DNA from: Hemileia vastatrix
Taxonomy: Eukaryota; Basidiomycota; Pucciniomycetes; Pucciniales; Zaghouaniaceae
Length of the DNA stretch: 64,000 bases
Assembly (NCBI GenBank): GCA_030280995.1
Contig: JASXTE010000001.1
Coordinates: 23,879,106 to 23,943,105, forward strand
Reading direction: 5' to 3'
The notes below the pieces were generated by a model. It searched no databases. It was not told the DNA's origin and was given only the letters and a program-made list of their open reading frames with translations. Position numbers and translations under genes: made by a program. Below, one piece after another: positions 2,759 through 48,041 of the stretch. Every line of letters starts with the position of its first letter. Position 1 is the stretch's first letter.

Positions 2759-3440
2759 ATGTCCAACAATTTGGCTGAAAAAATGGATAACATGCTAGTG
2801 GATGAAATTGAAATTGACTATGATGCTGATACGGTGAGTTCTTCTAAAGTTGAACATAAAAAATCTTATGCTAACACAAAAAATTCACATACTTCAGGAT
2901 GTGGAAATGACAGGAGAAGTAAACAAACCAAACCCCCTTCCCCCAGCACCACAGAAGGAAGTAAAGCCTCTAGTAACTCAAGAAGGTCTTCCAAAAGGAT
3001 TCAAAATAAAAAAGCTTCCTCTGCCACAACAAATCAGCAATCTGTCCAGTCATATAAAAGAGCTGAAGACAGAAAACATGAGGTACAAAGCAAAAGTAGA
3101 CACCTTGTGGGATCAGGTTCAGGAACTCAGGAACCAAAATCAGGCCTAGGCCCCTCCTCAATTGCCTCCCAATCAGCCTCAGTTTCAGGCTCAACCTTCA
3201 CAGCCACCCAGCTCCTCCAACCAAAATTCAAAGACTATGGAAGTAGAGCAATGGAAATGGGATTATCTCATGAGTCACTACCAACAGAATGTGCAACACC
3301 CTCCTCATCATCAGCCTGGCCCATCCAGAACACCCAATTTCCATCCTCCTCCTCATCCCTACCAACAAGGCTGGAGAAAGAAGGCCCAAGCACAATCCCA
3401 AACCCAGTCTCAGGGGAAGTTTCCTCCTCTGCCATGGTAA
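2759..3440 (+). pseudogene. Chromo-1 ORF1: spliced overlapping reading frame (coiled coil, WxWD)
   Basis: Exon 1 (2759-2833) is in the gag-pol frame and ends in an acidic DYDADT. A GTGAGT..CTAAC..TTCAG intron (2834-2897) leads into exon 2, read one base off from gag-pol. Exon 2 encodes DVEMTGEV, a KGFKIKK block, a heptad-rich coiled coil (QQISNLSSHIKELKTEN), a P/Q-rich linker, QWKWDYL, HPYQQGW and a C-terminal PPLPW before TAA at 3438. The same blocks occur in Chromo-2, -3 and -4. One TAG (3147) breaks this copy. I do not recognise the family and assign no function; the predicted coiled coil suggests oligomerisation. The frame overlaps gag-pol over its whole length. Confidence 0.65.
2834..2897 (+). 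other. Intron 1 of Chromo-1 (frame-switching)
   Basis: A GTGAGT donor, a CTAAC branch-like site near 2866 and a TTCAG acceptor give a 64-nt intron in phase 0. Because 64 is 1 mod 3, splicing moves translation from the gag-pol frame into ORF1. Counterparts occur at the same place in Chromo-2, -3 and -4. No transcript evidence is available. Confidence 0.6.
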
Positions 3441-3494
3441 GTAATTTGGTTGATAGTCACTTGGGTATGTTTTCTAATAAGACTTCTTCTACAG
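3437..3494 (+). other. Intron-2-like segment at the ORF1 stop of Chromo-1
   Basis: GTAAGT, then CTAAT in a pyrimidine tract, then TTCTACAG followed by GTAAT. The length of 58 nt is shared with Chromo-2 and Chromo-3. The unspliced sequence is open in the gag-pol frame. Splicing would leave the ORF1 ending (TGG TAA) unchanged, because exon 3 also starts GTAA. Confidence 0.5.
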
Positions 3495-5530
3495 GTAATA
3501 TTATTGAATATGGTGAAAGAACAGTTAAACCTGTTAAAAGACAGCTTCCTGTAACTAGTAGTCCTATTGATGTAATTAGCAAATTTTCATTTGATGAACC
3601 TTTACATTTAACTTCTACCTCTTTAATTAATCCTTCTCTTGCAATTAAGAATGATTCTGTTTCCCCTGAAGTCTATAACTTAATTGAGAAAACTTCTGAA
3701 GAAATATTGAGAGATACCCTTGATTTTAATGTTGTGAAAGACAAACATTTAAGAGATGTGTTAATACATAAAAGTGATAGATTAAATAATCTACACTTGC
3801 ATTGTAAAGTAAGTTCTTCTGTACAAGATACAGCTTATTATAAAATCAAAGACACTTTAAATATTGTTCTTAGCCAACAAAAACAAATAAGGAGTGACCA
3901 TAGAGCTATCTCAGATAAAAATATCAATCTGCATAAGACCTTGAGTGAATTGAAACCCCTTATTGAGGAAAATTATTCATTAAAAAGTGAAATAAAGTCT
4001 CTACAAAATGAGTTTAAAAAGCTAAAGAATGATTTCCATGCACCGAATACCAAACACACAGTTTCTGAGGACAGAAATGTTTTATCTCTTGCAAAAATAA
4101 ATGACCAAATGTCTGAATTTCCAAGGATAAGAAACTATATGTCTGACCTGCAGGAAAAATTTTCAACCTTAACCATCAATAATCATGGTATAAGTGAGAA
4201 TGCTGCCCATATGCTGCATAGAAATAAAGAAAAAGAACCTGAACAGAGTTCCTCTTTTCTTCCTCATATTTCAGCCATTAAAAAAGCTGATAATGAGTCT
4301 GTCAAATCTTTTGCTACTAGCAAAAAATCTTGTGATGGTCATGTACCAACTGGTTCTGTAAATAATGAAATTTCTGAACACCTGGCTAAACTTCAGGAAT
4401 TATTAATAATGAATAATTCAAACCAGAAAATGGACCATCCCAGTAGTCAGAAAAATTGGCCTAAATTGGACCAATATCCTACCTTTGATGGTGATTCTTC
4501 TTCTGATTGGCAACACTTTATCCAAAGGATTGATAATTTAAAGAGATCTTATAAACTACCTGATGAGGAAATTGTTTCTAAGCTAATTTCTTTATTTTCC
4601 AATGTAGCCTTGATGTGGTATGAATCTGTTCTTTTAGATAACAATCATTATACATGGAATGATTGGAAATCCTTGATTGAGAATCAGTTTGGTGGTTCAA
4701 AATTCAGGTTAGCTCAGCAAAGACTGTATGAGAATACTAGATATGTATCCTCCTCTGATGAAAAGCCCATTGTTTTTCTTATGAAAATAAGAAAACTCCT
4801 AAAAGCAATTGATCCAAAGATGGATTATGATATTTGTAGAGATAAAATCTTGTATAAATTACCAAATTCTCTTAGAAAGTTGATTGTGGCTAGAGCTGAG
4901 CATGTAAGGGAAAATTCTTCTTTTATTAATATCTGTAATGAGGTACTACTCACCCATAGATATGAACCAAAGAATTACCTTGGTAAATCTTATAATGATC
5001 AGAATAAACCTTCTACAAAGCTCCCAGAAAAATCTGGTAAACCCTCTGCCCCAGTTGCACCTAAAAAATATGCAACAAATACTTGTTATAAATGTAGCAA
5101 ACCGTGGCAAAAGGGTCATGTTTGTGACAAGAAAATTCATCTTTTTGAACAAAATGAAGACACTGATGAAGTTGAACATGATGTCAATAATTCTTCTAGT
5201 GACTGTGAAAGTAATATCTCCTATGACATTGAATCTGTTAAAGATGATTTAATGTTGGAACAGGATGTCCATTATTTAAATAATATATCTGAAGAATGTG
5301 TATTGGATTTATCTTCAGTAGAAAATGCTGAGATAATTAAAGATATTACTAACAATTCTATACCTATATCCCCTTTGAAGGCACCTGTTATCATCAATGG
5401 TAAAAATGTTGATGTAGTTCTTGATTCTGGTGGTGGAGGAAGTGTAGTGTCTGAAAAAGCTTTAGCTTCAGTAGATAGGGATTATTTGAGTAAATTATTA
5501 CCTATGACTTCTGAAAAATGGAGAGGGTAT

Positions 5531-5768
5531 CACCGCACAATACGGGGGGTGGACTTGTTAGCAAGTCCGCAACCTTGGACTCAAATTCACCACAGATTGA
5601 ACACACATTGAGCTATTGACAAAGGAACCATACAATCAGGGATGAACACCACTCAGCATAACAGTTTTTGTGGGTCTTCAAGTAGAGTTCAGTATGAGTT
5701 CAGTATGAGTTCAGTCTGAGTTCAGGTTGGGGACTTGCTAGCAAGTCCACCCCCTATATTGCGTAGTG
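5531..5768 (+). mobile_element. CACTA-ended MITE, copy A1, in the protease of Chromo-1
   Basis: This 238-bp non-coding insert is flanked by TAT at 5528-5530 and 5769-5771. Its 38-bp terminal repeats contain GGGGGTGGACTTG and a CTTGCTAGCAAG palindrome. The right end is TAGTG; the left end has drifted to CACCG. Internally, GAGTTCAG-type units are repeated, as in the subterminal repeats of CACTA/EnSpm elements. The insertion plus duplication (241 nt) shifts the reading frame by one and ends the gag-protease ORF at 5611. Removing it exactly restores the WRGYGS context seen in relatives. CACTA assignment rests on ends and 3-bp TSD. Confidence 0.85.
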
Positions 5769-8700
5769 TATGGTTCTACCTTAATTCCTATTGGAAAACA
5801 CAAAACCTCTGTATTCTTCAAATATTATGGTGGTTTTTTCAGAGCTATTTGTGAATTTGTTGTCATGAAGAATGATAATTTAAGCAATTGGTTTATTATG
5901 GGAAATGATATTTTAACCATGTTTGGTGTGAAATTGGACCCAGCAAATAATTGCTTTACCTTAGGAATGAATGGCAAAAGGAAATTCAAAATTTCCTCTT
6001 CTAGAAAACCTTCTGGGCATCTGTTAAAGTCTTATAACTCACTAATCCAGTTTAAAGGCAGAACAAAATTTGAAATGGATGATTTATTAAATGAAATAAA
6101 TACTGCTTCTTTTGGTGATCAGTTAACTAGTGAACAAAAGGATTCTATTATTGCCTCAATTACCTCTTTCCCTATGGCTTTTGCTCATGGTTCTCATGTC
6201 TTAGGAATTTTTCAGGAAGAAATGAAAATTACCTTATCCTTTAACTTGAGTGATATCCCTCCTAGTCTTAAGAAAAAACCATATCCTGTCTCTCCAACAA
6301 AAAGAAAAGATATTGAAGATAATATTGCAACATTATTAAAAATGAATATCATTGAGAAAATGGATGTCACCCCCAAATATTGTGTCATCTCCCTAGTCTT
6401 AATTTCTTATGAAAAAGATAAGGCTAGATTATGTGGAGATTACAGAGCTTTAAACACTTATACTGTTGATGATATTTATCCTTTACCCAGAATTAATTCA
6501 ATACATTCTACCTTGCAAGGTGCTAAATTTATTAGTTGTCTGGATGGTAATAAAGGATATCATCAAGTTCCAGTTGACAAAAATTCTCAAAACTTTTTGC
6601 TTATTGCTACTCATATGGGAATATATAAGTATGTTAGGATGCCATTTGGCCCTAAAAATGCTCCTTCAGTTTTCCAAAAAGTCATGGATAACACTTTCCA
6701 TCAAGAAATAATTGAAGGATGTCTCATGGTTTATATTGATGACATCATTGTTGTTTCTAAAACTTTTGATGAACATATGATTCACTTGAATAGAGTTTTC
6801 CGAAAAATGGATGAAATCAATATGACTTTATCCTTAAAAAAGTGTAAATTTGGTTTTCAATCTTTGAAAGTCCTTGGCCATGTTGTGTCAGGCTTACAAA
6901 TTTGTGTAGACCAAAAAAAAGTTGCTTCCATTCAAAATGTGAAAGCACCAACTTCTGTAAGAGAAATCCAAAGTTTTTTGGGTATGTGTGGCTATTATAG
7001 ACAATATATTAAAAATTATCAGGTCATAGCCTTGCCTCTTACAAAACTGACCAGAAAAGATGTTGCCTTTCTCTGGAATAATGACTGTCAAAAATCATTT
7101 GATACATTAAAAAGTTGCTTAATGACAGCCCCTATATTGGCTCTTCTAGATTTTAACAAGCCATTTGTCCTGTATACAGATGCTAGCTTTATTGGTCTGG
7201 GTGCTGCCCTTCACCAGAAACAAATTATTAATGATAAATCCTCAGAGGTTGTAATTTGTTATATTTCAAGAACCTTAAGAAATAGTGAATTGAAATATGG
7301 TGCCACTCAATTATAGTGCTTAGAAGTTGTTTGGGCTCTTGAGAAGCTTCATTACTATCTAGATGACCAAAAATTTGAATTGGTAACTGATTTTAGTGCT
7401 GTGAAGTCCTTCTTAAACCTGAAGACACCTAACAGACATATGTTCAGGTGGCAACTTGCTGTTCAAGAATACAGAGGACGGATGACCATTATCCATAGGG
7501 CTGGAAATGTTCAATCCAATGTTGATATGCTCTCCAGATTGCCTCTGCCAAATAATGACTCAAATCCTGCTTATGTACCTGAAGATGATACTGTTCATAT
7601 CCATGGTATATTTGTAGTGGATATGGAAGAAGAGTTATTGCAACTAATACTGGATTCATATGAGAAGGATTCTGATTTAAATAAATTGGTTACTATCTTA
7701 AATGATCCTAAGAATTCTTCAATTCAAGCATTAATAAAAACTCTTCCTGAAAAGTATCAAAATGCTTTGAGTAAAGGAAAGTTTTCTATTGAAGATGGTT
7801 ATATATATTATAGAAGAAAGCTTACTAATGTAATTGTAATTCATCCTTCAATGAAAGAAACTATCCTCAAACTTTGTCATGATGACATATTAGCTGGTCA
7901 TTTTGATCTTGAAAAAACATTGATTAGAATCAAAAACACTGCATGGTGGGCTAATATGTCTCAAGACACAAAATTATATGTTGAATCTTGTGATTCCTGC
8001 CAAAAATATAAAAGGTTAACAGGTAAGAGAGCAGGGCTATTACAACATATTGAAGCACCTAATGCTCCCTGGCAAATCATTAATATGGATTTTGTCACTG
8101 GTCTTCCTGTTGCAGGTAAAGAAGCTTTAACTCTTGTTGGGTAATAGTAGATAGATTCACAAAAATGTGCAAATTTATTCCAAGCCACAAAGATGTATCC
8201 ACCAAAGAATTAGCTTTCTTATGGTGGTCTTACATGTTTAATATTATTGGTTTTCCAAAAGCCATTATCTCTGATAGGGATCCTAAATTTACTTCTGAGT
8301 TTTGGACCTCTTTGATGGATATTTGTGGCTGTGAGTTACAATTGTCTACAGCTCACCATCCTCAGACTGATGGTCTAGCTGAGAGAATGATTCAAACTCT
8401 GGAAGATATGATTAGAAGGTATTGTGCCTTTGGTTTAGAATATAAAGACAATGACAGATTTACTCATGATTGGGTCACTCTATTACCTGGTCTTGAATTT
8501 GCATATAATAGCACTGTTCATTCTGTCACTGAGAAAAAGCCTTTTGAGCTTTGGTTAGGTTATGTCCCACATACTCCTGCTCAGATCCTCAACAATAAAT
8601 TACCTAAGTTGGAACTACATTCTGGTGTAAAATCTTTCATGCAAATGCAACAGCTATGCAGAAAAAATGCTCAGAGCTGTATTGATAAAGCATTTGAATA

Positions 8701-9190
8701 TTAAAAGAAAAGATGGGATAAATCCCATAAAGAATACACATTTAACAAGGGTGATGAAGTGTTGATCTCTACTATTTATTTCAATTTACAAGGTAGCCAC
8801 GAATTAAAAGAACCTTTTGTAGGACCATTTGTTGTTAAAAGAATGGTTGGTGATAATGCAGTAGAAGTTGTATTGTATTCTCCATATGATAGGAAACATC
8901 CTGTTTTTCCCATTTCTTTGCTTAAGCCTTATACTTCCAACAGTGACTTATTTCCTAAAAGAAGGGGAAGACCTAAGAAAAACCCTCAGGAAGTCACAGA
9001 AACAGAAGAAATTGATAAAATTCTCAATGATAGAGTTATCACTTCTGAAAGAGGTACTGAATATTTGTTGAGATATAAGAGCAAATCATCTGAACATGAT
9101 GCATGGATACCTGGCAAGGAGATTTCAAATCTGCCTACTCTGTTGAAAAAGTACAAAAAGAAAAAATATTAGCATTTTTTTTTGTTTTTT

Positions 9191-9204: not shown

Positions 9205-10322
9205 TGTCAGCCAGGCTATTCAAGGAGCCCAGTAAATGATATTTTAACTTATAGGACTTTAAAGAGGGTGTAAGAATTGTATTTAATGTATATAAATTAA
9301 TATTTTATTGCATAATCAAATTATATATGTATCTTATTACATATAAGTGTTATATTAATTTTATTGCTTATATAAATTTTTATACATTTAAATTAAACAT
9401 AATATATTTTATATTCTACAAATAATGGCGCATTTTTATGCATTTAATAATTATAAATTTATATTTAATTAATTAAAAACATATATTATAATTATAAGTG
9501 TAAAATTTACTTATAATATAATTAAATTAATTATTTATATTTATATATTAAATATCATTTTTTATAGTATTAAACAATAAATAATGACGCTTCTTTTGAC
9601 CCATAAATGTGTCAGGAAAAACTAATTAATCGTAAATTGAAATTAATTACTTATTTTGTTGCGTCAAAATATTTTTTGTTTCACTTAAAAATCCTTAAAT
9701 CAGACTGTACCATCTGTTTTGAATTATTTTTCTCATAGTTCCTATGTTCCAGTCTTGTTTAGTTATTTACTATTTTTACTTACTGATTTGGGAATTAATT
9801 GTGGGAAAATTTGATTCTTAATTGGTGTTTTAATTAATTGTTTCATATTTTTCTCTACATTGTTATTTTTCACTTATTCTTTTATATTCTTATTTCAGCT
9901 AATTATAATTCTTGTATTTACAAATATAGTGGCGCTTCAGAGGACCCATTGCCTATAAAAAGGCCTTGGATAATCCCCTGTAGCCTCATCACTTATTATA
10001 CACTCAACAAATTAAATACACTTTTACATTACGTTTATATTCTTTTTATTAGTAATAAAATTCTAATCAAAATTCTATACAACAATTGAAAGGTTGCTTT
10101 AAGTCTGATAGTGATCACAGTGTCTGCTGCCCATAGCCCTTACATCATAATAATATTATTAATAAATAAAAACCTCACTTTTGTCACCACTCAAGAAAAC
10201 GTCATTGATTTTCCTCAATAAATTAGATAATTTTTAAAATTTCTTTTTCTTTTATTTCCCATAATCCCTTCCTTCTTCTCCTCTACCACTTCTTCCTCCC
10301 TCTTCTAGACGACTGACCGACA
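9205..10322 (+). repeat. Chromo-1 3' LTR
   Basis: The 1118-bp LTR runs from TGTCAGCCAGG to GACCGACA, followed by the target duplication AAAGC. It is identical to the 5' LTR over about 620 bp of its 3' half but differs at about 19 sites in its 5' half. The 83-codon ORF at 9838-10089 repeats the one in the 5' LTR. Confidence 0.95.
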
Positions 10323-10982
10323 AAAGCTCACTTGGGTGAGATCAGGTTGATTTATATCACCATAAGGATCTATTGGAAAGATATCTTAATTTGTGGAAGT
10401 CAAATGAGGGGAGGCTTGATATGAAGAGGAAGGAAAAAGATTTATTTTGAAATCATGTTTGGAGATATTATCTTCTCCATACAATATGTTTTCAGGATTT
10501 AAATTGGTTTGCTCTCCAAATATGGAATCCATCTCTTTAAAGTAAGGACATAAAGAATTAAGTTTATTGTCTATAGAATTGATGCCCTTACTGATATCAA
10601 TTTTGATAATTCCAAAACCAGTAAGATTAGAAAGAGTCTTAACCTTCTTGTATTTGGCTTGATAGTGCTTGAAGCATTCAGAAATCTTTTTAGGCAAAAG
10701 ATCAATCCTTCCCTTTGTCTTGTTTCTTAATTCATAAGCCATTAGAAGATATCCATTTACTTTTGATGAAGGGGGAAATCCTATTCTAGTTGAATTCTCA
10801 GCACCAAAACAAAAATCATAATTAGCTTTAGTTCTTAGCCAGTTGATAAGTATGAGGTGATCATATTTTTTTAGCTGAATGGTCTATGATTTCTTGGCTG
10901 AGTGGGGAAAAGAGGGAGTAGTATGGTTTGAAGAAAAACAGATGGAAGCCTTCCTTTGAGAAGATTTATGACAACAAGGCAT
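10323..10982 (-). pseudogene. Myb/SANT-like DNA-binding protein of Harbinger-1, N-terminal part
   Basis: The proposed start is the ATG at 10982. The translation carries the Myb/SANT-like pattern of Harbinger accessory proteins and rust-expanded relatives: DHLILINWLRTKANYD, then KVNGY, then KYKKVKTLSNLTGFGI and CPYFKEMDSIFGEQ. Such proteins bind transposon ends and help import the transposase; that role is family knowledge. One TAG sits at the position of the expected first tryptophan (about 10886). The long frame ends at 10386. Downstream, a CAA|GTGAGC looks like a splice donor only a few bases before the Chromo-1 insertion, so the retroelement probably landed in an intron. The gene resumes at 957 and below. 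Confidence 0.7.
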
Positions 10983-24600: not shown

Positions 24601-26990
24601 TATGATTTAATCAATCTCAAAATATTTTCTTCCTCAATTTTTGAGAGTTGAGGACTGAAAGAGGCCTTTTGGATTTCATTATCCAATTCAACCATTTCAG
24701 TGGTGGTTCTTCCACCTTGCAGTTGTTCTTCTCTAGGAGAAATGGCATACACTGAGTTTTCAGAACATATTTTAAATTTTTTCTTACCATTCACACCTAT
24801 AGTGAAGCTGCTGTTTTCAGGATCTAGTTTAATGCCAAATTTTGTCAATAAATCATTGGCAATTATAAACCAATCACTACAATTTTTATTATTCATTACT
24901 ACAAATTCACACACTGCTCTAACATATCCACTATTATATTTAAAGAATACTGCAGTTTTGTATTTTCCAATTGGATTTAATACTGAACCAAAACCTCTCC
25001 AGTTCTTTGTTTGAACAGGTTCTAGTTTTTCCTGGTACTTACTATCAAGTTTCATTAATGTCTTAATTGAAACTACACTACCTGCAGCCCCAGTGTCAAG
25101 AATGGCATTCATTTTATTTTGACATATAATAAAAGGTGCTCTGATAGGTGTTATTTTGTAAGTATCATGAGTTACATCTTTTATTATTTCAGCTTCCTCA
25201 ATGGAAGTTAAAGATGTGTCTGTATATGGTATAGCATCATTCAGGAACATAATATCCTGTTCTAATACGAATATCTCATGTTCATCATCACTGTAAGATA
25301 TGTTACTTTTGAAATCCTCACTGGATTCCACATTCTCATCTTCATGATTACTTGGTTCAGAATTCTGTGAGGTTTCAATAACATTTATTCTTTTCTTACA
25401 TGTGTGACCCTTTAACCAAGGCTAATTACATTTGTAACAGGTGTTTTTTCCTGTCTCTTAGGGACAAGGGGAGCTGAAGGTTTTTTCTTCTCCACTGGAA
25501 ATTTACTTGTAGTAGGTTTTACCATGTCAAAACTTTGTCTGTAATTGTTATACTTGGTTTCATACTTGTGGTTTAATAATATCTCATTGCATATATTAAT
25601 GAATCCAGAGGTATCTCTGATGGTTTCAGTTCTAGCTACAATAATGTCTCTAACTGATATAGGCAACTTGTATATTTGGCTTTCATGATTTTTATTAAAT
25701 TCATTAAAAATACCATGGGTTTATCTCCAGCATTTGGATTATATCTGGATTTTTCATACAATCTTTGTTGAGTGATTCTAAATTTTGGGCCACCAAATTG
25801 CCTTTCAATTAGTGCCTTCCATTCATTCCAGGAGTAATTAATTCCCTCACTCAATACTGATTCAAGCCATAATAAGGCCACATCTGTAAATAAAGATATT
25901 AACTTTAAATAATTTCTTCATCAGATAATTTGAATGAAAATTTTAAGGTATCAATTCTTTGTATGAACTGCTGCCAATCAGATTTTGAATCCCTGTCAAA
26001 AGAAGGGTACTGATCTAACTTAGGCAAGTTCTTTTGGTTAGTTCATGCTTCCCTAACCTGAGGAATATTCAGTAATTCACTCACTTTGGAATGATGATCA
26101 TTTATTTCATCTTTTACTGATTTACTGTTCTCAGAGCTCATGAAACTATATTCATGTTCCATCATTGGTGTTTCATTTGCGTGTTTCATGAAAACAGGTA
26201 CTCTTGCCACATAAGAAGTGTTATCTTTTGTTTTTTCAGTATTTTTCAAAATGTTTGCTACTTCTATTTCTACTCTTTGTAACCTATCCTTTATTACAGG
26301 TACATGAGTTAGAGTATCATTTACATTTGAAAAAGATAATTTAACACGTCCTTCAATGGTAGCCATAACATTCTGAGTATGTTCTAATTTACTTTCTAAA
26401 TTCCTAATCTCAGAATACAATCTTTTATTTTTATTGATTAATTCATCATTTGAATTTTCAATAATTTTTAATTTATTGGCTGTGGTACTCAATGATTGTG
26501 TTAGCTGTATTAATACATTTTCTGTATTATTGTTTGACTCTTTTGAGAACTCTTCCAATTTTTCAATTCTCAATAATAATTTACTTATTATTTTTGATTC
26601 CATTGGATTCTCTTTCAAAAAATATTCTATTTTTTCTGTGTCTAATTTAGGAGACTCATGATTTGATTCCATTTTTATATTAATAGCATTATCCTGGTGA
26701 TCAATAGAACTATTTACATTGTCCTCATGTAGAGACAAGTTTAACATATTCTTTTCAAATAAATAATCCTTTAAATAATTATCAATAATATCCAATGTTT
26801 CCTTATCAATCTCATTACCTATAAGTAATTCATTGTCAGGTTGATACAATTGACTATGAGGAGTTGGATGACTTACAAAGGTCTTATCCCACTTTTCATT
26901 CCTCTCCTTGCCTTTCCCCTGAAAGGGTGACTGCTGAAGCCCTGCAGTTGAGGATTGTTGTGATTTTGGGCGTACCAATCCCATTTCCAT
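21603..26990 (-). pseudogene. Chromo-2 gag-pol
   Basis: Order on the minus strand: coiled-coil gag N-terminus (26990-26043, first residues MEMGL, in frame with the exon-1 ATG at 27410), then a gag domain with FGGPKFRITQQRLYEKSRY, decayed by a frameshift and loss of about 14 codons. A knuckle with one stop and protease AILDTGAAGSVVS (about 25110) follow. RT with YIDDIIVFSK lies near 24030, RNase H with YTDAIFIGLG near 23590. Integrase has its HHCC finger near 22860-22780 and a D,D,E core (ISDRDPKF; GLAERMIQ) near 22380-22500. GPY/F and a chromodomain with YLLRFKGKSNEFDKWIPEKE end at 21603. At least eight stops or frameshifts are present. Confidence 0.92.
26819..26876 (-). other. Intron-2-like segment of Chromo-2
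   Basis: GTAAGT donor, CTGAC branch-like site, CTTATAG acceptor followed by GTAATGAG; 58 nt. It begins at the ORF1 stop as in the other copies. Here the ATG that overlaps the stop in Chromo-1 and -3 is absent. Confidence 0.5.
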
Positions 26991-27410
26991 TTGCTTACTG
27001 TGATTTTTTGATCCTCCTCTTGGGCTGGAGGTGTTGCTACAGAATTGGTGAGTGCCACTGTTTGTGGTTGAGCCTTTATGTCCACTAGAGCTTGGTTGAC
27101 TTTGATGAAACCTTGAGCTGCTCTTTTCTCCAGTTTGTTGATCTGGTCCACTATATTAATGACTCTTATTTTCAAGGTGTTCAATAGGGTGGATAGGGAG
27201 TGAATTTTTTCTTGTAATGTATTTCTTACTTTCTTTATTGAAACTTACTTTAAAAGTCTTTCCCTTTCCTCCAGAGACATTGGTGGAGTGTTGTTTATTA
27301 TGGGAGAGTCCTGGACCTCCATTTGAATGTTCTGTAACAGGTCTTTCAGCTCTAGGTCTGAAGTTATAAGGTTTTGCCTTATTGCTTACAATGTCATTGT
27401 TGTCACACAT
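26873..27410 (-). pseudogene. Chromo-2 ORF1 (spliced overlapping frame)
   Basis: Exon 1 is only seven codons (27410-27390), followed by a 58-nt intron (27389-27332). Exon 2, one frame off gag-pol, reads NIQMEVQD, PPMSLEERERLL, a coiled coil (LQEKIHSLSTLLNTL, then IVDQINKLEKRAAQGF), VSKWKWDWY and ends GIRPL before TAA at 26873. PMSLEERE corresponds to QMSIEEKD in Chromo-4, and KWKWDW to the W motif in Chromo-1 and -3. One TAA (27245-27247) interrupts this copy. Function unknown. Confidence 0.62.
27332..27389 (-). other. Intron 1 of Chromo-2
   Basis: GTAAGC donor, CTGAA branch-like site and GTTACAG acceptor; 58 nt, phase 0, 1 mod 3. It occupies the same place as the introns in the other three copies, immediately before the conserved start of the ORF1 exon. 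Confidence 0.55.
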
Positions 27411-36134: not shown

Positions 36135-36756
36135 ATGACTGATAAAAGTGCTTCTGCTGGCAGTGATGAGGAGCTGGATTTAGTTGACTATGATGAAGCT
36201 TCTTTTGTAAGTTCTCCTTTGACTACAAAACTGGCTCAAATTAATCAATTACTGGACCAATCAGGATGTAGAAATTCAGAAGATGGAAATATTAGTGGAG
36301 ACAACTGCTCAAGATCAAAAGCCTTCTATCAACCCCCTAGAAGAGTTTCAAAAAGGCTTCAAAATAAAAAATATTCCCTTGAATCAGCAAGTCAAAAATA
36401 TCTCCACTCACATCAAGGAGTTGAGGTCAGAAAACCTCAAGCTGAGGTCTTAAACAGACTCTCTAGTAGATAAGGTAAGAAAAATAGAGTCCTTCCTTCA
36501 AATGAAGTGGAAACCTCCTCCTTCAAAAGCCATTCCACAATTGGCCCCCAAGCAACAAGAAAAGGTGGAAGTCTCAAAGTGGCAGTGGGATTGGCTGAAC
36601 ACCCAGTGGGATTATCTGTCCCAACAACAAAAGCAACAAGTACCTCAGGCAGGTCCTTCAAGAACCAATCAGTTCACCCCCACACCCCCTCACCCCTATC
36701 AATGAGAAAGAAAGATTAAAAACAATCACATTCAATTCTTGCCCAAGCCATGGTAA
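36135..36756 (+). pseudogene. Chromo-3 ORF1 (spliced overlapping frame)
   Basis: Exon 1 (36135-36206) ends in acidic DYDEASF. A 58-nt intron (36207-36264) leads to exon 2, which is one base off gag-pol. It reads DVEIQKMEI, EEFQKGFKIKN, coiled coil QQVKNISTHIKELRSEN, VSKWQWDWL, QAGPSRT, HPYQ and a final PKPW before TAA at 36754. Compared with Chromo-1, the coiled-coil segment has 11 of 17 identical residues, and differences such as CAA/CAG, CAT/CAC and AAA/AAG are synonymous in this frame. The gag-pol frame over the same bases is poorly conserved. Stops at 36451 and 36703 show decay. Confidence 0.65.
36207..36264 (+). other. Intron 1 of Chromo-3
   Basis: GTAAGT donor and ATCAG acceptor, 58 nt, phase 0, 1 mod 3. 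The acceptor is followed by GATGTAGAA, as in Chromo-1 (GATGTGGAA). Confidence 0.58.
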
Positions 36757-39700
36757 GCCCCTCTATTGAAACTCAAGTACCATTTCTTGTAACTGATTCA
36801 GTTCCTTCAGGTAATTCTGGAAGAGAAGATGAGACTGTGAGACCAGTATAGGCTGAGAATATTAGACAAATTTCTCAATATTCTAATGTATCTAATCCTT
36901 TGCTTTTGATTGCTACTTCAATGATAAATCCGGATATGGCTATTATTGATGAGAAAATTGATCCTGAGTTTTATGAGAATCTGGAAAGTTATTCTGTTTC
37001 ACTATTGAGAAATACTCCAGATGTAGCTAACATTAATGATGAATATTTGAGGGATATTATTGCTAAACAAAATCATATAATGAAAAATATAAAATGACTC
37101 AGAAATATAATAGTTTTTTAACTGAAAAGGGCTACCAAGCATTGAGGAGTAAGTTACAGAGAGTTTCTTTTTATTTGTTTCATTACAAAGTAACTCATGA
37201 AAAGAAAGTTTCTTTATGGCAAAATATCAAGAATAATTTGTCTAAATTAAAAGATGATGTGTCCATCTGTTTCCAGGAGCTAGAAGGAGATAAGATGAAC
37301 TTAGAAAGATTGAGTAACCATTATTCATCTTAAAAAAAAAGAACCAGTTATCTTTTCCAACCATAAATGAGAATTTATCTAGTATTCCGAGAGTAAAAAC
37401 TAGGTTAACAAATATTGAGGATAAATTGAACTCATTTTTATATAATCAAAAGTTTTCTGACATTTCTTTGAAAGAACCTGTTGAGCAGGATACCCCAATT
37501 GTACCTGTTCCTAGTTCATTCAAAGTAAAAATAGTGCCATAAATGCCTGTTGATACCACTGAGTTTCCATCAAAATTGATGATGTACCGGGATTGTCTAC
37601 AGAAGGATTAAACAATGAGATTAATGCCCAATTGGAGAAGTTATATCTCCTTCTCACTCAGAACCAAGCTTGTAATAAGGAGACTAATTCAAATAAAAAT
37701 AATTGGCCAAAACTTGACCAGTATCAAAAATTTGATGGTCACTCTTCCTCTGATTTGCAATAGTTCATTTGCAGGATTGATAGTCTAAAAATTTTTTACA
37801 AACTCCCAGATGAGGAAATTGTGTCAAAATTAATTTCTTTATTTACTAATATAGCCCTAATGTGGTATGAATTTGTTCTCCTGGATAAAAATGACTACTC
37901 ATGGGAAGATTGGAAAAAATTAATTAAAGCACAACTTGGTGGTTCCAAGTTTAGGTGAGATAAGCAAAGGCAACATGAAGAAACCAGATATAGCTCTTCA
38001 ACAGAAAATCCTATTGAGTTCCTGATGAAACTTGTGAAAATATTGAGGGAAATAGACCCAGATATGGAGTTTGATTTATGGAAGGACAGGATCCTCTATA
38101 AATTACCTATGTCTCATAGAGACTTAATAGTCTCTAGGACTGAGTTCTCAAGGGAAACTTCTTCTTTCATTAATCCTTGTATTGAGATCCTTCTAAACAA
38201 CAAGTATGATTCTAGAAGATTCATTTCTAGAACTTCATTGGTGAAAACCTCCAATAACCAACAACAACCTCTGGAAAAGGTTGGTAAACCTTCTGCCCCT
38301 GTTGCACCCAAAAAGTATGCAACAAACACTTACTTAAAATGCAGAAAGCCTTGGAAGAAAGGCCATGTTTGTGACAAGAAGATAAATCTTGTTGAACAGA
38401 CAGAGGAACATGCTGATGAAACAATATCACTGGATGATACTTCAAGTGATTGTGCCAGCAATATATCATATGAATCTCACCAAGAAATTTTAATGCTGGA
38501 AGAGGATATTCATTATTTAAACAATATTTATATTGAGAATAATGATTTATCTACAGTGGAAGATGCTGAGATCATAAAAAATCTTAAGGATAGCTCAATT
38601 AGTATTGCCCCTCTCAAGGCACCAGTCTTGATCAATGGAAATAACCTTGAGGTTGTCTTAGATTCTGGAGCTAAAGGAAGTTTAGTATCTGAAAAAGAAC
38701 TTACTTAAGTGGACCAAGATTATAAATCAAAACTTATGCCTATCATCTCTGAGAATTGAAGAGGTTATGGCTCTGTTTTGTCCCCCATTGGTAAATACAA
38801 AGCCACAGTATTTTTCAAATATAATGATGGTTTTGTAAGAGCTATATATGATTCTGTTGTCATGAAAAATGATAATTTGAGTAGTTGGTTCATTGAGGGA
38901 AATTAAATTTTAACCAAATATGGCATAAAATTAGATCCTTCAAACCAATGCTTCACAATGGGGATGCATGGGAAGAGAAATTTTAAAATTTCCTCCCCTG
39001 AGAAATTATTAACACCAGGATTGAACACATGTAATTCTGTAGTTCATTATAAAGGAAGATCTACAAATGAAATGCCTGCCCTTGTGTCTGAAATTGACAA
39101 TGCTTCCTTTGGGGAACAACTTTCTGGTGAGGATAAATATTCCATCATTAAATTGATAAAATCTTTTCCTATGGCCTTTGCTCATGGGTCACATGAATTA
39201 GGATTGGTAAAGGAAGAAATGAAGCTTTCATTATTGTGCCCATTGACAGAAATACCACCTAGTTTAACGAAGAAGCCTTATCCAGCTTCTCCCACAAAGA
39301 GAAAAGATATTGAAGACAATATCTCTACCCTTTAAAAATGAATATTATTGAAAAGGTAGTTGAAACACCTAAACATTGAGTTATCACACCCATCCTAATA
39401 TCTGATGAGAAAGATAAAGCCAGACTATGTGGTGATTATAGAGCATTGAACTCTTATACTGTTGATAATATCTATCCTTTACCCAGAATTAGCTCTATAC
39501 ATGCTACCCTACAAGGTGCTAAATATATCAGCTGTTTGGATGGTAACAAGGGACATTATCAGGTACCTGTTGAGAATTATTCCCAGAATTTTCTGATGAT
39601 TTCTACTCATATAAGTATTTATAAGTATATTAGGATGCTATTTGCCCTAAAAATGCCCCTTCAGTTTTTCAAGAATTTATGGATAACACATTCCATCAGG

Positions 39701-41519: not shown

Positions 41520-42291
41520 CAGCAGGAAAAATAAGTAAACTAGATGTCTAGTTGTTTTTTTTGACCCTGTTCAAGCCCTGGTTGTGATTATTCTCGATAC
41601 CTTTGAATGACCTTGCTTTATCCCTTCCACCCTTTTACTGTCTACAAAAAGTCACTTTTTCACTAACCCACTTGCTCCCTTCTTCTCATTATCCCTTTAT
41701 ACTTACCTGATCATTGTTTTCTTTTCCCTTCCTCATTTCAATTCCCCCTTTTTAAAATTTTCTTTTCTCTTTTTCTTGCCCTATTCTTTCTTCTTTCCAT
41801 TTTCCTTTCTTTGCTTCTTAAGTGGCACATGAAAACATGTTAACTACATATCTACTTACCTCTTTACAGTATACGACTTCATGCAATTCAAAGGTGCTTA
41901 AAGCACCTAATAAGAAAAAAAAAATTTCTCTTAATTCTGTAATTTGGGACTACTTTTTTGATGTACATATGTGGTGAGAAATAATAAAAACATAAAAATG
42001 AATGACTAAAAATTTAAACGATTAAAAAAAAGGAAGGCAGATTACCCCACAGGTATTTTTTATGTGTACTAGGGGAAAATTATGTCATGTTTGCATCACA
42101 CATTACAATGTCCTAAAAAAAATGTAAAATATTTTAGTATCCTCTGAAATGTTTAATTATTAAATATAAATGCATAAAATAAAATGTAACCATTTACAGG
42201 ACACCATGTCATGTTTTTTTTTGGCAGTAAATCTGTACTCAATGCACAAATGTGCAAATCCAACACCCCCTCCCCCATGTATGGAATAATC

Positions 42292-44203
42292 ATGGATTCT
42301 GTCTCAAACAACCTTGATAAGCAAATTGACACGCCTGATGCGCCTCCACAAAATTTGCCTCCTCTCATGCCTCCTGACCCTTCCCCTCCTTTGGAAGCAG
42401 AATCCCCCCTCTTCCATCCAATTCCCCCACTCCTGCCCCTTCCCTCCTGGAGTCTCACACCCAAGACTTCAATTCTTCCATGGCACTTGATCCTGTCGTC
42501 AAAGATCTTCCCCCACCCCCCCAAGATTCAATCAATCTGGTCTCCTCCCCCCCGCTCTCTCCTCTCTCTCCCCTCCCCCCCTCTCTTCAACCCCAATTCC
42601 ATCTACGTAGCCCCAACTGTCCAGCCCCCCCCACCTGGCCCCACTAGATACCCTGCTGCCAAGAAACGCAGGTATTCTTCACCTACTTTAGGATGCACCT
42701 TTTGTCTCAGCAATCCATGGCTGAAGCTAGGGAACAACATCTGGAGCTGTTCCCACATCCTGGTAGTATTTCTAGCTCTGAAGGTAGTGCCACTCCCACT
42801 CCTCCTCCAAAAATTAACCCCATCCCCCTTACTCTTAGACCCTCCCCACCAACCCAAGGGGCCTCCCTTAGCGCCTCCATTCACAACCCAAACAAACCAT
42901 TCGCCTGTTTTGGCCTCTCCTCTGTGCCTCAAATTCCTCTCCCTGTCACTGTGTACCAAAATACTCCTGCAGCCCGCATCATACGTCTGGTGGGCAAAGA
43001 ATGTGCAAATAACCCTCATGCTCTTGTCTCCTGCCTCAATAATCTCTTAGGTACAATCAGAGACCCACCCAGAAATGGTTCACACATCACAGTTCACACA
43101 GCCACCATCTCTGAGATCAAAGCTTTGGCAGCTGCATTGTCTCCCCTTGCATCCCAATCCACTTTCCAAAAATAATCTACCTCCCCTCCCCCCTTCTGTT
43201 AACTCCATCAACAGCAAACTTGATGATATTCTCTCCCCTCTTCCTCTCAAGGATCATCACTCTCACCCTCCCCCCATCCACAATGCTTCAGCCCCATCAC
43301 GCCCCACCTTTTCCCAAGCTACTGCTGCAGGTCTTTCCCCCCAAGGCACCCATCCTCCCCATGCTAAAACCAGGGTATCTCTCCCATCCTTTACTATCAA
43401 ACAAACGGATCCGGCTTCCCCTTTCCTCAAAGAATTTCCAAATTCTAAACTTCTCTCATTCATTAACAACCGGCTTGTCACCAAGAAAATTGTGAACCCT
43501 GCAATCAAACTCTCCATCAAAGTCAAAGGTGTCATTTGACCCAAGTTAAATGACCTCAAAATCATCACAGACTCCAAGGAAGAACACCTCATCCTGGTCA
43601 ACTCCTGGCAAGAATGGATTCCACAAGGCATGATCTTTAAGCCGCCCACCTTCCCAGTTGTTGCCCATGGTGTCCCAACATACTACGACCTTAATGATCA
43701 AGCATGTATCTCCTCCATTATTGGGGACAACCCATCTTCTCTCAAATCCCTCTACTGATTCTCATGGCTCAGACACCCAGAGGACAGAATGGGAAAAAAC
43801 CATTCCTCAGTAGTTTTACACCTTTTTGACCAAAATGATGCTGACACCCTCACCTCCTCCTTTCCCCTCCATCCCCTTATTATTGAAGGACAAGTTAGGC
43901 ACACGGAAGCAGTCAACCGAGAGAAGAGCACCTGTTACCAGTGCTGAAGTAAAGGTCATCTTTCCATCCATTGCTCGCTTCCTCCCGTTGCTCCAATTGT
44001 GTGGCCACCACAACTCCAAAACCTGCAAGGCTCCTAAACTCTCTTCCCCAGTGTGCTTCTGGTGTGTGGATGCTCTCCCAAATGAACACCCCCTGAAGAA
44101 TTCACCCAACTCTCTCCCCTCTCTCCTTCTAAATCTCTCCATCGCCCCTCCAATCTTCCATCTCCCCCACGCCCCAACCTGCCCTCAAAATAATCAAATA
44201 TGA
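42292..44203 (+). pseudogene. LINE ORF1 (gag-like, zinc knuckles)
   Basis: It starts MDSVSNNLDKQID at 42292. A proline-rich N-terminus is followed, after frameshifts near 42690 and 43180, by TYDLND-type core sequence (HLILVNSWQEWIPQ, VPTYYDLNDQ). A knuckle CYQC-SKGHLSIHC fits CX2CX4HX4C, and after one more frameshift a second reads CGHHNSKTCKAP..VCFWC. RNA binding and RNP formation are the family role. Three in-frame TGA codons stand where Trp is plausible (CYQC*SKGH among them). The stop TGA (44201-44203) overlaps the ORF2 start as ATGA, a common LINE arrangement for reinitiation. Confidence 0.8.
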
Positions 44204-47200
44204 TTGACAACCCTTCCTCTCTGCCAATCTGCTCTTGCCTTTTCACCTTTTTTCAGCTTAATTGTCAACGTTCTTTTTATGTATTCCACTCTATTTTTAA
44301 TGATCCCACTATTGACTCATATGATATCCTAGTGTTTCAGGAACCTTTTCACTCACCCAACCACCACTACCCTGCCCCAGCCAAATGCTGGAACCTTATC
44401 ATCCCTCTTCACTCCCCTCCTTCTCCCCCCTCCCCTATCCAGTGTTGTTTCTATATTAATAAGAAACACCCTATTTACCTGTTCACTTCCATTCCAAGCC
44501 CCTCCCTTGACCTCACGCTCATGAAAATTGACCTTTCACCATCTCCCATTTTTTGCGCCAACCTTTACAATCCTACCTCTACTTTCTCTACAACTCAATT
44601 TATCTCTCCTTTTCTCTCCCCCTTCTGCAACTCCCCAACTTTCTTCTTTGCTTACTCGAATTTACATCATGATCTGTGGGCTGATCCTTTAAAACACCAC
44701 ACTAACAACCCTGCTTCCTCCCCCTTTTTAGATGCCCTCTCCAACCTTGACATGTCCCTCATGTCTCAATAAGGGGTTCCTACCTTTTTCAACTCACGTA
44801 ATTTTACATCTGTAATTGACCTTGTGTTTGCAAACGGTATGGCCTCTGAATATGGTTGTCAGCTGCATTACTGACCAAGAGGGTTCTTCATCTCATCTTT
44901 CCAATCACAAATCCATTACCACCCGTATCTCACTCAACCTTCCCATGCTCCCTCACCGATTTCCATTCTGTAATTGGAAAGGTTTTGTTGAGTCTTCTCT
45001 CTTTGCTTCCCTTACTTCTCTCTCCCATTGCCACCCTCCCCCTCTCCTCTCTGCCTCTTCCATTGATTTGGCTGCCAAACATGTTACCTACAATTTTATT
45101 GAACTAATGGAAAGTTCTGTCCCGCTGCAGAAGCCCAGCTTGTTGTGTCATGCATAGTGGAATCGCAGCATCTTGAATCCCCTCAAGTCTGCTTGCTACC
45201 AGACCCAACATAAATTCAGGTCTTCCCCAGCCCCACATGTTGCAGCCAAGTTCCTGCTAGCAAGGAGAGCTTTCCGCTCCAAAATTAAATACCTTCGTAA
45301 ATTACACTGGCAATCACATCTTTCCTCACTCACCCCTCATACTCTTTTTAAACCGGCTAAGTCTTCCCCTTTCCTTTCTAATTCCCACTCCAACCCTCCT
45401 TTAACCCTTCCTGATGGCTCCTTGCTCACTAAAAACTTCCTAAAAGCTAAAGCCCTGTTTGAAGGAACTTCAGTTGCACAAATTCATGGTGATCTTACTG
45501 ATGCCCCTCCTTGTCCCCCTCCCCCCTCTTCCCCCTCTCCTCCCTTCACATTTGAGGCAGTTAAGGCCACCCTTCTCAAATCAAAAAAGGGAAGGGCCCC
45601 TGGCCCTGACTGCATTCCTAATTCCCTCCTCCACTGCCACCCCAAACCATCACTTCTATCCTTCTCCCAATTTTCCAGGCAAGCCTTGACCAGGGACACT
45701 ACCCCTCCCCCTAGAAGGAAGCCAAGACAGTAATCATTCCAAAACCCGGCCGCCCAAATTATACCGTCCCAAATGCTTACCGTCCCATTGCACTATTAAA
45801 CACCATGGGTAAGTTACTTGACTCCCTACTGACTAAACACCTGTTGTTCTTAATGGAATCAGGTAATCTTTTACCTGAAAACCATTATGGTGGCCTCCCC
45901 TTAAGAAGCACCTCAGATGCACTCCTACATCTCACCACCTGGAAAAAATACCAATGGTGGAAAGGTAAGGTTGTGGGCGCCCTATCCCTTGATTTTAAGG
46001 GCACCTTCCCCTTTGTTAACACCTCCCACCTGTCCTTAATCCTTCATTCACTCCTTCTCCCGCTCAACCTCATCAAACTCATCACCAACTCATTGGAGGG
46101 AAGGAAAACAAGTATTGCTTTCTCTTCATATGTGTCCCCGACTTCCTTCTTCCCCAAAGGTCTCCTGCAAGGGTCACCCATCTCCCCAATTTTATACATT
46201 ATATATAACTCTCACCTACTCTCGCTCCCTTCCCTCTCAACTTCAACCCTTGCCCTTGGCTATATTGATGACATAATATATTTAGCTGCTGACTCTGAAC
46301 AAAGCAAGGTCTGGGAAAAACTATCACAATTAGGTTCTGAGGCAGTGGATTGGGGCTCTAAGCATGCTGCTATATTTGAACTTTCAAAAACTAAATGGTT
46401 ACAACTAACTAAGCATCCTTCTCTCCTCAGATCTCCGCCTTCCCTTCAATTTGATGGGATTCTCTCCCCCTCTCCTCCAGTCTAAAATGGCTTGGAACCC
46501 CCATTGATCCCACCCTCTCCTTCAGACCCAATGGCAAAAAAATAATTTCCGCAGGCCTAAAGGCTGCCTCCTCCATCCATTTTCTGGCCTCCTCAGGATG
46601 GGGCATCCCACTCAAACAGTATAAGATCCTCATCTCCTCTCTCATCAACTCCCATACAGACTATGCTGCTATAGTATGGCACCAACCCACCAAACACACC
46701 TGCACCACAAGATTACTCCAAGTGGTTGACAATAAATCCATCAGACAAGCTCTGGGATGTTTCAGATCCACCCCCACTTGCATTCTTCTCCACGACTCTT
46801 ACTCCCTATCCTGCAAGCAGTGCCTTGACTTGGCGGTCAACAAGGCATGAGCGCGCCTCGTAACTATCCCGTTGTCCAATCCTATGGCCCAACTTGCTAG
46901 ATCCCTCTGTAATTCCCCCTCTTCCCCAAAAACTCACCTACACCAACTTCATCTCCTATCTTCAAATAACATATTTCCCCGCTCTGTTCCCCTGGGAAAT
47001 ATGGATTCTAGACTTCCCCTCCCGCTCCCCCCTTGGTTTCCCCCATTATTCAAGGGGATCATTGCACACTCAAAGGATGATGCACTTACTAAAGTTACCA
47101 ACTCCACGCTCCACCTGCCCCCATCCTCATACTTAATTTTTACAGATGGGTCAAAATCTCAAAATGGCATGTTTGCTGCTGCTTTTGACCCTCTATCACA

Positions 47201-48041
47201 GTTCCCATTTGTGACCCAAATCAAGGACCCCTCCCATTTCTCAGTCTTCAAGTTGGAGGTGATAGGAGTCCTACTGTGTCTACAACTCTTCTTAAACAAT
47301 CCCCTTCACCCACTCTTCAATACCCTCACCATTTTCATGGATAATCAATCTGTTATTCGCTCCCTCTCCTCCCCTTCTCCAACCTCATCCAACTCCTCAA
47401 TCTTCCTGTCAATCCTCACCACCATTCACCAACTAAAACAGCACCACCCTGACTTCTCACTCATTCTCCACTGGTGCCCCGGTCACATGGGCCTCACAGG
47501 AAATGAGACAGCTGATGTGCTTGCTAATGGTACTGACAAGTTATCTCACCCAGCTAAGTCATTCCTCACTTTTCAGTCTCCTCCCCCATCCATCTCTTTT
47601 CTAAAGTCAATATTATCTTTGCAAACCAAGTAATTACTTCTCACCCCTCCCTGAGCTGAAGATCTTAGGAAGTTAAGAGGCAAGTTTGACCCACATGGGA
47701 TGTACAAAACATTAACTAGCCTCCCTAGAGTGCACGCCACTGCTTTCATACAATGCCTCTCTGGTCACTCTCCCTTGAAACACTACCTATTTAGATTTAA
47801 AGCTTCAGACTCTCCCAAATGTCCCCTTTTCCCTACCACCTCAAAAGACACTCCTGAACACATCCTCCTTATATGCCCATCACACTTAGCTTTTTGCCGC
47901 ATCCTTCTCAAGGCCGCACAAAAACACAAAACTCATTTTACCACTTCTGGTCTCCTCACTTCCTCTCCCATAAGCTCACTAGTTGCTAAATTCCTCGTCT
48001 CTTCTGGTAGATTCCACAATAATATCCCCCTCACACAGTAA
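44200..48041 (+). pseudogene. LINE ORF2 (endonuclease, reverse transcriptase, RNase H)
   Basis: Endonuclease: FFQLNCQRS and DILVFQEPF near 44250-44350, a SNLHHDLW motif near 44660, and HLSNHKSITT near 44910 at the catalytic S-D/N-H position. RT: KGRAPGPDCIPNSLLH (45590), AYRPIALLNTMGKLL (45780), GLLQGSPISPILYIIYN (46160) and GYIDDIIYLAADS (46260). RNase H: IFTDGSKSQNG (47140), LEVIG, MDNQSVI (47340) and WCPGHMGLTGNETAD (47470). A C-terminal CPLFPTTSKDTPEHILLICP finger ends at 48041. Lesions: TAA 44770, frameshift near 44830, TAG near 45157, frameshifts near 45730 and 46485, TGA near 46848 and a break near 47633. Confidence 0.92.

Follow-up and report, generated by a model that had tools for sequence, protein, structure and literature searches.

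Chromoviruses of the rust fungus Hemileia vastatrix probably make two proteins from one start codon through splicing and overlapping reading frames

A 64,000-nucleotide stretch of the Hemileia vastatrix genome (GenBank assembly GCA_030280995.1, contig JASXTE010000001.1, forward-strand positions 23,879,106 to 23,943,105; hereafter the window) holds four chromoviruses, Chromo-1 to Chromo-4 (C1 to C4), and we consider it likely that in this chromovirus lineage splicing and overlapping frames let one start codon serve two proteins. In the model that we propose, the unspliced RNA, which is also the genome, would be translated from a common start codon in exon 1 (ATG1) through intron 1 (I1), the alternate frame of exon 2 and intron 2 (I2) to give Gag-Pol. 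Removal of I1, which measures 58–64 nucleotides (nt) and is 1 mod 3, would instead lead into a second frame, ORF1, whose product of about 160–205 amino acids (aa) is predicted to form a coiled coil, bears basic patches and ends in PW*, and I2 would be removed at the ORF1 end. Spliced RNAs would sometimes be reverse transcribed and inserted, giving rise to copies that lack I1 or both introns.

The four window elements have the same layout. Each carries a GT..AG I1 of 58–64 nt shortly 3' of ATG1 and an I2 of 52–58 nt, whose donor, placed where ORF1 ends, reads GTAAG[TC] and whose acceptor precedes GTAAT; both introns are 1 mod 3 in all four copies. A preliminary description of the window had placed I1 at 2834–2897 in Chromo-1 (64 nt), 36207–36264 in Chromo-3, 27332–27389 on the minus strand in Chromo-2 and 53018–53075 in Chromo-4 (58 nt each), and the four segments lie as placed; I2 is absent from that description. 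Unspliced, ATG1 opens the gag-pol frame, whereas with I1 removed it leads into ORF1, which ends in PW* in intact copies; this shift had been proposed as well, and its splicing is now backed by the exact processed copies presented below. Exon 1 supplies 7, 24 or 25 codons common to ORF1 and the gag frame. In Chromo-1 (plus strand), exon 1 (2759–2833) consists of ATG1 and 25 acidic codons and is joined straight to exon 2 in I1-less copies, I1 (GTGAGT..TTCAG, with CTAAC at offset 37) is open in the ATG1 frame if retained, and exon 2 (2898–3440, ORF1 frame with its stop) contains the coiled coil, KWxWD, GPSR, HPYQ and the PW* end, followed by I2 (3437–3494, 58 nt, GTAAGT..TACAG). C1 and C3 have a gag-frame ATG at the ORF1 end, ATG2 (3434–3436 in Chromo-1), which shares bases with the ORF1 stop (CCATGGTAA); it is missing from C2 and C4 as well as from a subgroup of C3. 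The unspliced gag-pol frame of Chromo-1 (2759–5611, 950 aa) runs through exon 1, I1, alternate-frame exon 2, I2, gag and the start of the protease; it includes a weak Asp_protease_2 match under the cut-off (residues 875–908, E 0.05) and, in the gag frame, a CX2C..HX4C motif that we take to be zinc-knuckle-like.

The other three elements repeat this order. Chromo-2, on the minus strand, has an exon 1 of 7 codons (27390–27410), its 58-nt I1, an exon 2 whose ORF1 frame is broken by a stop (26877–27331) and a 58-nt I2 (26819–26876). Chromo-3 (plus strand) has an exon 1 of 24 codons (36135–36206), I1, an exon 2 with two stops in the ORF1 frame (36265–36752) and a 58-nt I2 (36753–36810). Chromo-4 (plus strand) has an exon 1 of 7 codons (52997–53017), its 58-nt I1 and a putative I2 (53535–53586, GTAAGT..TATAG) whose length of 52 nt was counted from the letters. 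No window copy has an intact ORF1: Chromo-1 carries an in-frame TAG at 3147–3149, in Chromo-3 the frame is cut short 62 codons into exon 2, and the ORF1 copies of Chromo-2 and Chromo-4 are also broken. The branch-point motif CTRAY is present in I1 and I2 of C1, I2 of C3 and I1 of C4, and absent from I1 of C3 and I1 of C2.

The abundance of these elements is such that the genome, of 750 Mb, itself logs which splice forms were copied back. We searched the 747.6-Mb assembly (791 contigs) for copies of the C1-, C2- and C3-like families (hereafter types; sampled genomic copies bear L-numbers). A query that fused exon 1 of Chromo-1 with exon 2 had 185 matches, of which the top ones span it from end to end without a break. 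We fetched 80 C1-type loci, namely all 17 unbroken or nearly unbroken matches among those listed and 63 others, and aligned them to Chromo-1; 78 rows including the window copy were scored, three of 81 having been dropped (L025, L034 and L043). The C1- and C3-type samples were drawn with spliced queries, take in all or many of the top unbroken matches and are enriched for I1-less copies, so that the counts are not genome frequencies, and the copies are related rather than independent. In the C1 type, I1 measured 64 nt in 34 rows and 63 nt in 25, was exactly missing in 16, and measured 60, 66 and 55 nt in one row each; I2 was exactly missing in eight rows, all of which lack I1 too. Among 50 C3-type loci, I1 was exactly absent from 24, 58 nt long in 22 (one being the window copy) and 57 nt long in four. 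Three of the 24 I1-less loci (L098–L100) are near-identical; they lie on three small contigs (C756, C757 and C768) and are perhaps assembly duplicates. I2 is exactly absent from the C3-type copies L101, L103 and L106, where I1 is gone too, and from L113, where I1 is kept, which brings the I2-less copies of both types to 12. The preliminary statement that I1 is always 1 mod 3 thus holds for the four window copies and fails genome-wide, given the 63-nt, 57-nt and I1-less copies. In the 63-nt copies one base seems to have been lost at differing places of the A-rich intron, and two groups of such copies lie apart on the C1-type tree, one of them inside a short-branched clade.

Trees built without the introns (C1 type without L025 and L043; C3 type without L091 and L098–L100) place these losses in several lineages. 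By parsimony, the presence of I1 changes at least 11 times and that of I2 six times in the C1-type tree, and at least five and three times, respectively, in the C3-type tree; these counts give no direction, and many of the forks are weak. In the C1-type tree, the I1-less L016 adjoins the I1-bearing L058 with branches of 0 and 0.0035 and a support of 85, while in the C3 type L101, which lacks exactly both introns, is 98.4% identical to L141 over 485 nt of exon 2. Exact GT-to-AG losses beside near-identical intron-bearing siblings indicate that spliced RNA was occasionally reverse transcribed and inserted; from these exact processed insertions in the C1 and C3 types, I1 and I2 are both removed in vivo.

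The gag frame, in turn, is held open across exon 2 beyond chance. Among the 78 C1-type rows, exon 2 is stop-free in the gag frame in 56, in the ORF1 frame in 54 and in the third frame in one, a frameshifted copy. Since related copies inherit an open ancestor, we used a shuffle test in which the ORF1 protein was fixed, its own synonymous codons were shuffled and gag-frame stops were counted. Fifteen copies were hand-picked for an intact ORF1, three of them with gag stops (L096, L120 and L131). Seven C1-type copies had 6.6–7.7 stops expected and none observed, and eight C3-type copies had 4.5–8.5 expected and 0–2 observed (P ≤ 0.001 in each copy); under pol codon usage the expectation for the same 15 copies was 12.6–15.6. 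Four further copies behaved alike: C2-type L139 (6.84 expected, 0 observed; 0 of 20000 shuffles as low) and L140 (6.12 and 1; 33 of 20000), L141 (5.18 and 0; 8 of 20000) and L142 (5.63 and 1; 61 of 20000). Overall, P was below 0.004 in all 19 hand-picked copies, which represent about four lineages and not 19 independent tests, and the third frame of exon 2 had no stop deficit in any of the 19. Chance openness of the gag frame is rejected by these shuffles, which bears out the earlier judgement that the open frame of Chromo-1 across the overlap is more than luck. T makes up 0.16–0.26 of ORF1 third positions and 0.45 in pol, a scarcity that stop avoidance in the -1 frame demands. I1 itself is stop-free in the ATG1 frame in 61 of 64 C1-type and 24 of 27 C3-type I1-bearing rows (85 of 91; C3 and L091 are the same copy), and its other two frames hold means of 1.2–3.4 stops.

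The amino acids that selection preserves in exon 2 are those of ORF1. Alignment columns with a second letter in at least four copies fall at ORF1 codon positions 1, 2 and 3 in numbers of 10, 15 and 37 (of 180, 180 and 179) in the C1 type and 40, 37 and 102 (of 162 each) in the C3 type, and the corresponding change rates are 0.033, 0.041 and 0.088 and 0.127, 0.108 and 0.284. In exon 3, gag positions 1, 2 and 3 change at 0.038, 0.031 and 0.081 in the C1 type, and a gag-codon signal is also present in I1-less C3-type copies (0.105, 0.099 and 0.172; the C3-type exon 3 rates come from a looser copy filter, as the stricter one passed two copies). In a filtered set of 71 copies with ORF1 open and at most one gag stop, ORF1-silent, gag-altering changes occur at 0.091 (C1 type) and 0.309 (C3 type), and gag-silent, ORF1-altering ones at 0.033 and 0.132. 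Changes that introduce a gag stop and leave ORF1 unaltered stand at 0.030 and 0.096, 3-fold rarer than the ORF1-silent gag-altering ones; these pair-based rates, like the later ones on stop-making changes, count pairs, not events. Without the gag filter, and with any copy excluded that was frameshifted or had over two stops in ORF1 (the deep C3 set retained 10 of its 11 copies), ORF1-silent stop-making changes remain rarer than other ORF1-silent changes in the 63-nt and I1-less C1 set (0.0099 versus 0.109), the deep I1-less C3 set (0.040 versus 0.202) and the other I1-less C3 copies (0.074 versus 0.262). Changes that follow ORF1 codon positions, taken with the shuffles, indicate that gag needs exon 2 to be readable without requiring a given sequence. 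Dual coding is therefore asymmetric: the gag frame is kept open, while ORF1 alone is conserved as amino acids in exon 2. The preliminary proposal of true dual coding stands as regards the gag frame, which is open beyond chance, and does not extend to gag amino acids, as the changes in exon 2 follow ORF1 positions; purifying selection confined to the gag-pol frame had been named as the outcome that would overturn the proposal, and the reverse was found.

Abundant recent copies bear on how the gag frame is reached. A C2-type search returned more than 100 of 150 scored rows at one identical score with no internal stop, the mark of a very recent burst, and in a search with the C3-type subfamily of L141 and L142 most of the listed matches have one common shape. 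I1 measures 58 nt (1 mod 3) in L139, from the C2-type burst, and in L141 and L142, from the abundant C3-type subfamily; a segment of the same length is present in L140, where the donor is damaged. In L141 no stop interrupts the gag frame from ATG1 via I1, exon 2 and I2 up to where the fetched stretch ends, and in L139 it is stop-free from ATG1 until a one-base loss in exon 3; L142 and L140, the latter closer to the window Chromo-2, have one stop each between ATG1 and the end of I2. The open ATG1-frame I1 together with the long open frames of L139 and L141 supports intron retention, and we infer that Gag-Pol is translated from ATG1 by retention of I1. Stop avoidance looked strongest in the 63-nt and I1-less groups, and the idea that I1 is irrelevant, which came from this, was dropped as the deep C3 subfamily has 58-nt I1 copies; these also indicate that the first sample was biased by the spliced query.

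Several results weigh against this account. In 25 of the 78 C1-type rows I1 measures 63 nt (0 mod 3), so that unspliced ATG1 reads ORF1 and not gag, and one short-branched C1-type clade of 25 rows consists, but for a single row, of 63-nt, 60-nt and I1-less copies (24 rows), which suggests that some lineages amplify without ATG1 reaching gag, in trans or otherwise. C3-type 58-nt copies are near-flat across gag positions in exon 3 (0.085, 0.084 and 0.091), with no position signal in exon 1. ORF1-silent stop-making changes are not depleted in the 64-nt (0.060 versus 0.053) and 58-nt sets (0.140 versus 0.099), which we read as old copies decaying after insertion, a reading that does not by itself favour the model. 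Nor are stop-making changes depleted where they also alter ORF1, be it in the deep C3 set (0.101 versus 0.073), the 58-nt set (0.106 versus 0.101) or between families (0.65 versus 0.53), and constraint on gag-frame amino acids is not seen in exon 2. The role suggested for ORF1 below is argued by analogy because no homologue was found in our searches, and a slippery heptamer, A AAA AAG, in the ORF1 frame offers an alternative entry to gag.

That heptamer underlies a rival in which ribosomes slip by -1 from ORF1 to gag at A AAA AAG or A AAA AAT, at about codon 33–37 of exon 2, so that the phase of I1 is irrelevant and spliced, 63-nt and intronless RNAs could all yield Gag-Pol. The gag frame is indeed -1 relative to that of ORF1, each of the 10 copies checked has the heptamer in its ORF1 frame (counting from 0, codon 36 in C1, 32–33 in C3 and, as AAAAAAT, 34 in C2), and 63-nt and I1-less copies keep gag open, as the depletion of ORF1-silent stop-making changes attests. 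Yet stops are scarce upstream of the heptamer too, a hint, from few sites in mixed sets, that gag is entered before it: ORF1-silent stop-making changes there run at 0 versus 0.397 in the I1-less C3 set and 0 versus 0.051 in the 63-nt and I1-less C1 set, but at 0.057 versus 0.363 and 0.022 versus 0.044 in the all-copy sets and 0.051 versus 0.006 in the 64-nt set, with only 2–2.5 sites per sequence and the same exclusion of frameshifted copies and of those with over two ORF1 stops. The number of upstream stops to be expected from shuffles is 2.7 for C1 (P about 0.02) and 1.3–1.7 for C3 (P 0.10–0.16), whereas the shuffles for C2 were cut at codon 14 rather than at the heptamer and are not informative on the slip site. 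I1 is also open in the ATG1 frame, the deep C3 subfamily includes 58-nt I1 copies, the C2 site is placed differently from those of C1 and C3, and A-rich codons are frequent here. Taken together, we regard frameshifting as unlikely.

Much less probable is that ATG1 serves ORF1 alone and Gag-Pol starts at ATG2 (CCATGGTAA) by termination–reinitiation, the open gag frame being a matter of composition luck. An ATG is present at this place in 77 of 78 C1-type rows and in many C3-type rows, in a CCATGG context, and it would serve 63-nt and I1-less copies that retain I2. However, shuffles that keep the protein and its codon usage almost never leave the gag frame open, and L139, L140, L141 and L142 have no ATG2 and nevertheless hold an ATG1 gag frame with no stop (L139 and L141) or one (L140 and L142). 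Since neither C2 nor C4 nor the L141/L142 subfamily possesses it, ATG2 is not a general gag start, and reinitiation in that general role is rejected, being largely refuted by the copies without it. An ordinary split gene, with ORF1 as the first exons of gag and splicing restoring one frame, is barely credible: two canonical short introns do lie near the gag start in all four window elements, but both are 1 mod 3 there, so that their joint removal misses the gag frame. The frames also fail to rejoin in doubly spliced copies, where, among the eight such C1-type rows, the four with an intact ORF1 end in PW* and ATG2 gives 20 codons in all eight; L101 ends in PW* too, and a two-exon gag is rejected. 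Finally, the reading that copies without I1 or I2 arose by deletion or represent an ancestral state, and hence prove no splicing, has next to no chance of being right, for although tree parsimony lacks direction and many forks are weak, the losses run exactly from GT to AG, in both introns and several lineages and beside near-identical intron-bearing siblings, and the intron positions are equal in the C1, C2 and C3 families.

The ORF1 product is recognizable across the lineage. Four aligned ORF1 sequences have in common IKK, a coiled-coil-like stretch, VxxWxWD, GxS, HPY, R and a final PW, and the conserved blocks span the C1, C2 and C3 types, in agreement with the shared protein features reported from the window. 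A Pfam scan gave weak coiled-coil family matches alone, below the cut-off; a bZIP transcription factor was considered and rejected, since bZIP_1 reached 22.2 bits against a cut-off of 27.6 over profile positions 27–63 only, which we read as a generic coiled coil. Neither ORF1 alone nor the four-row alignment found a homologue among 5.8 billion proteins when searched by a method that depends on 5-residue words in common, and ORF1 had no match among solved structures. Removal of I2 creates the stop codon that follows PW in L141 and L142, which suggests that the doubly spliced form is the selected product. The ORF1 frame runs on in L110 (439 aa), where I2 measures 56 nt, two below the usual length, and ORF1 is thereby joined to the gag frame, and at G000 C260:31755999-31756523 (712 aa). 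The protein is basic and probably associates with itself; with its origin in spliced RNA, and in an element that has to get an unspliced genome out of the nucleus, it would suit the role known for CERV. By analogy with CERV for Cer1 and Rev for HIV, we tentatively put forward that ORF1 may regulate at the RNA level, its likeliest task being to aid nuclear exit of the unspliced RNA.

Complex retroviruses are well known for overlapping genes that splicing makes accessible, that of the small HIV-1 regulator Rev being one of them; among LTR (long terminal repeat) retrotransposons, Ogre of legumes belongs to the Ty3/gypsy superfamily. Rev and ORF1 differ in genomic location and overlap partner, no sequence relation was found between them, and their likeness is one of description. 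In the sections of the literature consulted, the close parallel among LTR retrotransposons is the nematode element Cer1 of C. elegans, a Ty3/gypsy element whose CERV protein has 517 aa and five exons (PMC10309623); the same account names HIV-1 Rev as a retroviral regulator whose own mRNA is spliced and whose target is unspliced RNA. CERV, as described there, is a second protein from a spliced mRNA, with a Gag-common N-terminus followed by its own frame and with a leucine-zipper-like part, and the unspliced RNA serves gag-pol (PMC10309623). ORF1 likewise derives from a spliced element mRNA, as the exact processed copies show, and would have a Gag-common N-terminus with the rest in its own frame, judging from the open frame that points to a Gag start at ATG1. 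Unlike Cer1 in that account, the rust elements overprint the gag start itself via one 58–64 nt intron, and an export role has been demonstrated for CERV whereas it is suggested for ORF1, the two proteins being likened by description (PMC10309623). Facultative splicing in BARE1 of barley and in copia (PMC3735527), and in EVADE of Arabidopsis (PMC12786077), is reported to toggle between production of Gag alone and of the complete polyprotein. The spliced form of these Ty1/copia elements is a Gag with an early stop, in contrast to the Ty3/gypsy chromoviruses here, where the spliced form encodes a different protein and the unspliced one Gag-Pol. In Ogre an intron is spliced from part of the transcripts, and the portion of its account consulted describes no frame-overlapping second protein of the kind seen here (PMC6317226). 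Across BARE1, copia, EVADE and Ogre, facultative splicing either yields Gag or permits the entire polyprotein. Among titles and the beginnings of abstracts, with subscription literature partly covered, we came upon no overlapping gene in a fungal element that is switched by splicing, and the main text of a 2025 survey of rust transposons, in the version consulted, holds no word starting with 'splic' or 'intron' (PMC12210899).

The elements are chromoviruses, with a Ty3/gypsy reverse transcriptase (RT) and RNase H and an integrase after RT that carries a C-terminal chromodomain, seen in C1 and C2. In Chromo-1, all on the plus strand, the LTRs extend at a minimum over 963–2085 (5') and 9205–10323 (3'), and the pair is 98.0% identical over 1123 nt; between them lie RT and RNase H (5766–7316; RVT_1 E 2.6e-26, RT_RNaseH_2 E 4.9e-21), the zinc-binding part of the integrase (7380–8144; Integrase_H2C2 E 7.7e-19) and its C-terminal part with an SH3-like domain and the chromodomain (8705–9169; Chromo PF00385 E 5.8e-8, SH3_Tf2-1 E 1.6e-7). 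The Pfam scan also found RVT_1 in C2 and C4, the chromodomain of Chromo-2 (Chromo PF00385 E 7.3e-7) and, in the integrase C-terminal piece of Chromo-4, SH3_Tf2-1 alone, slightly under the cut-off. The named sequences among the 120 best relatives listed for the Chromo-1 RT are nearly all Austropuccinia psidii proteins, which points to a rust as the probable host. Some copies occur as same-strand pairs about 8 kb apart (G000 C338:55418241 and 55426464; C579:33421706 and 33429925; C338:52526034 and 52533960; C338:15346245 and 15354277), which are perhaps tandem elements with a common LTR. A GC-rich (0.46–0.47), strongly C-skewed element at 42000–48000, probably LINE-like, with RVT_1 in 45805–46482 and RNase_H in 46872–47630, sits between the halves of repeat pairs flanking Chromo-3, and an inverted repeat (48168–48751 and 48914–49497) has 584-nt arms that are 94% complementary and 162 nt apart.

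A more speculative thought, which we consider rather doubtful as a whole, is that these fungal chromoviruses may have evolved their own Rev- or CERV-like regulator by overprinting the gag start. Such a regulator, a protein encoded by spliced mRNA, would license export and packaging of the unspliced genome, gag would keep the overprinted stretch only as a free-form readable linker, and spliced RNAs that slip into particles would seed gag-less copies that supply or exploit ORF1. The elements open to study, from sequence alone, the balance that a retroelement strikes in translating, splicing and copying one RNA, and they offer a case for how a gene born by overprinting splits selection between two frames.
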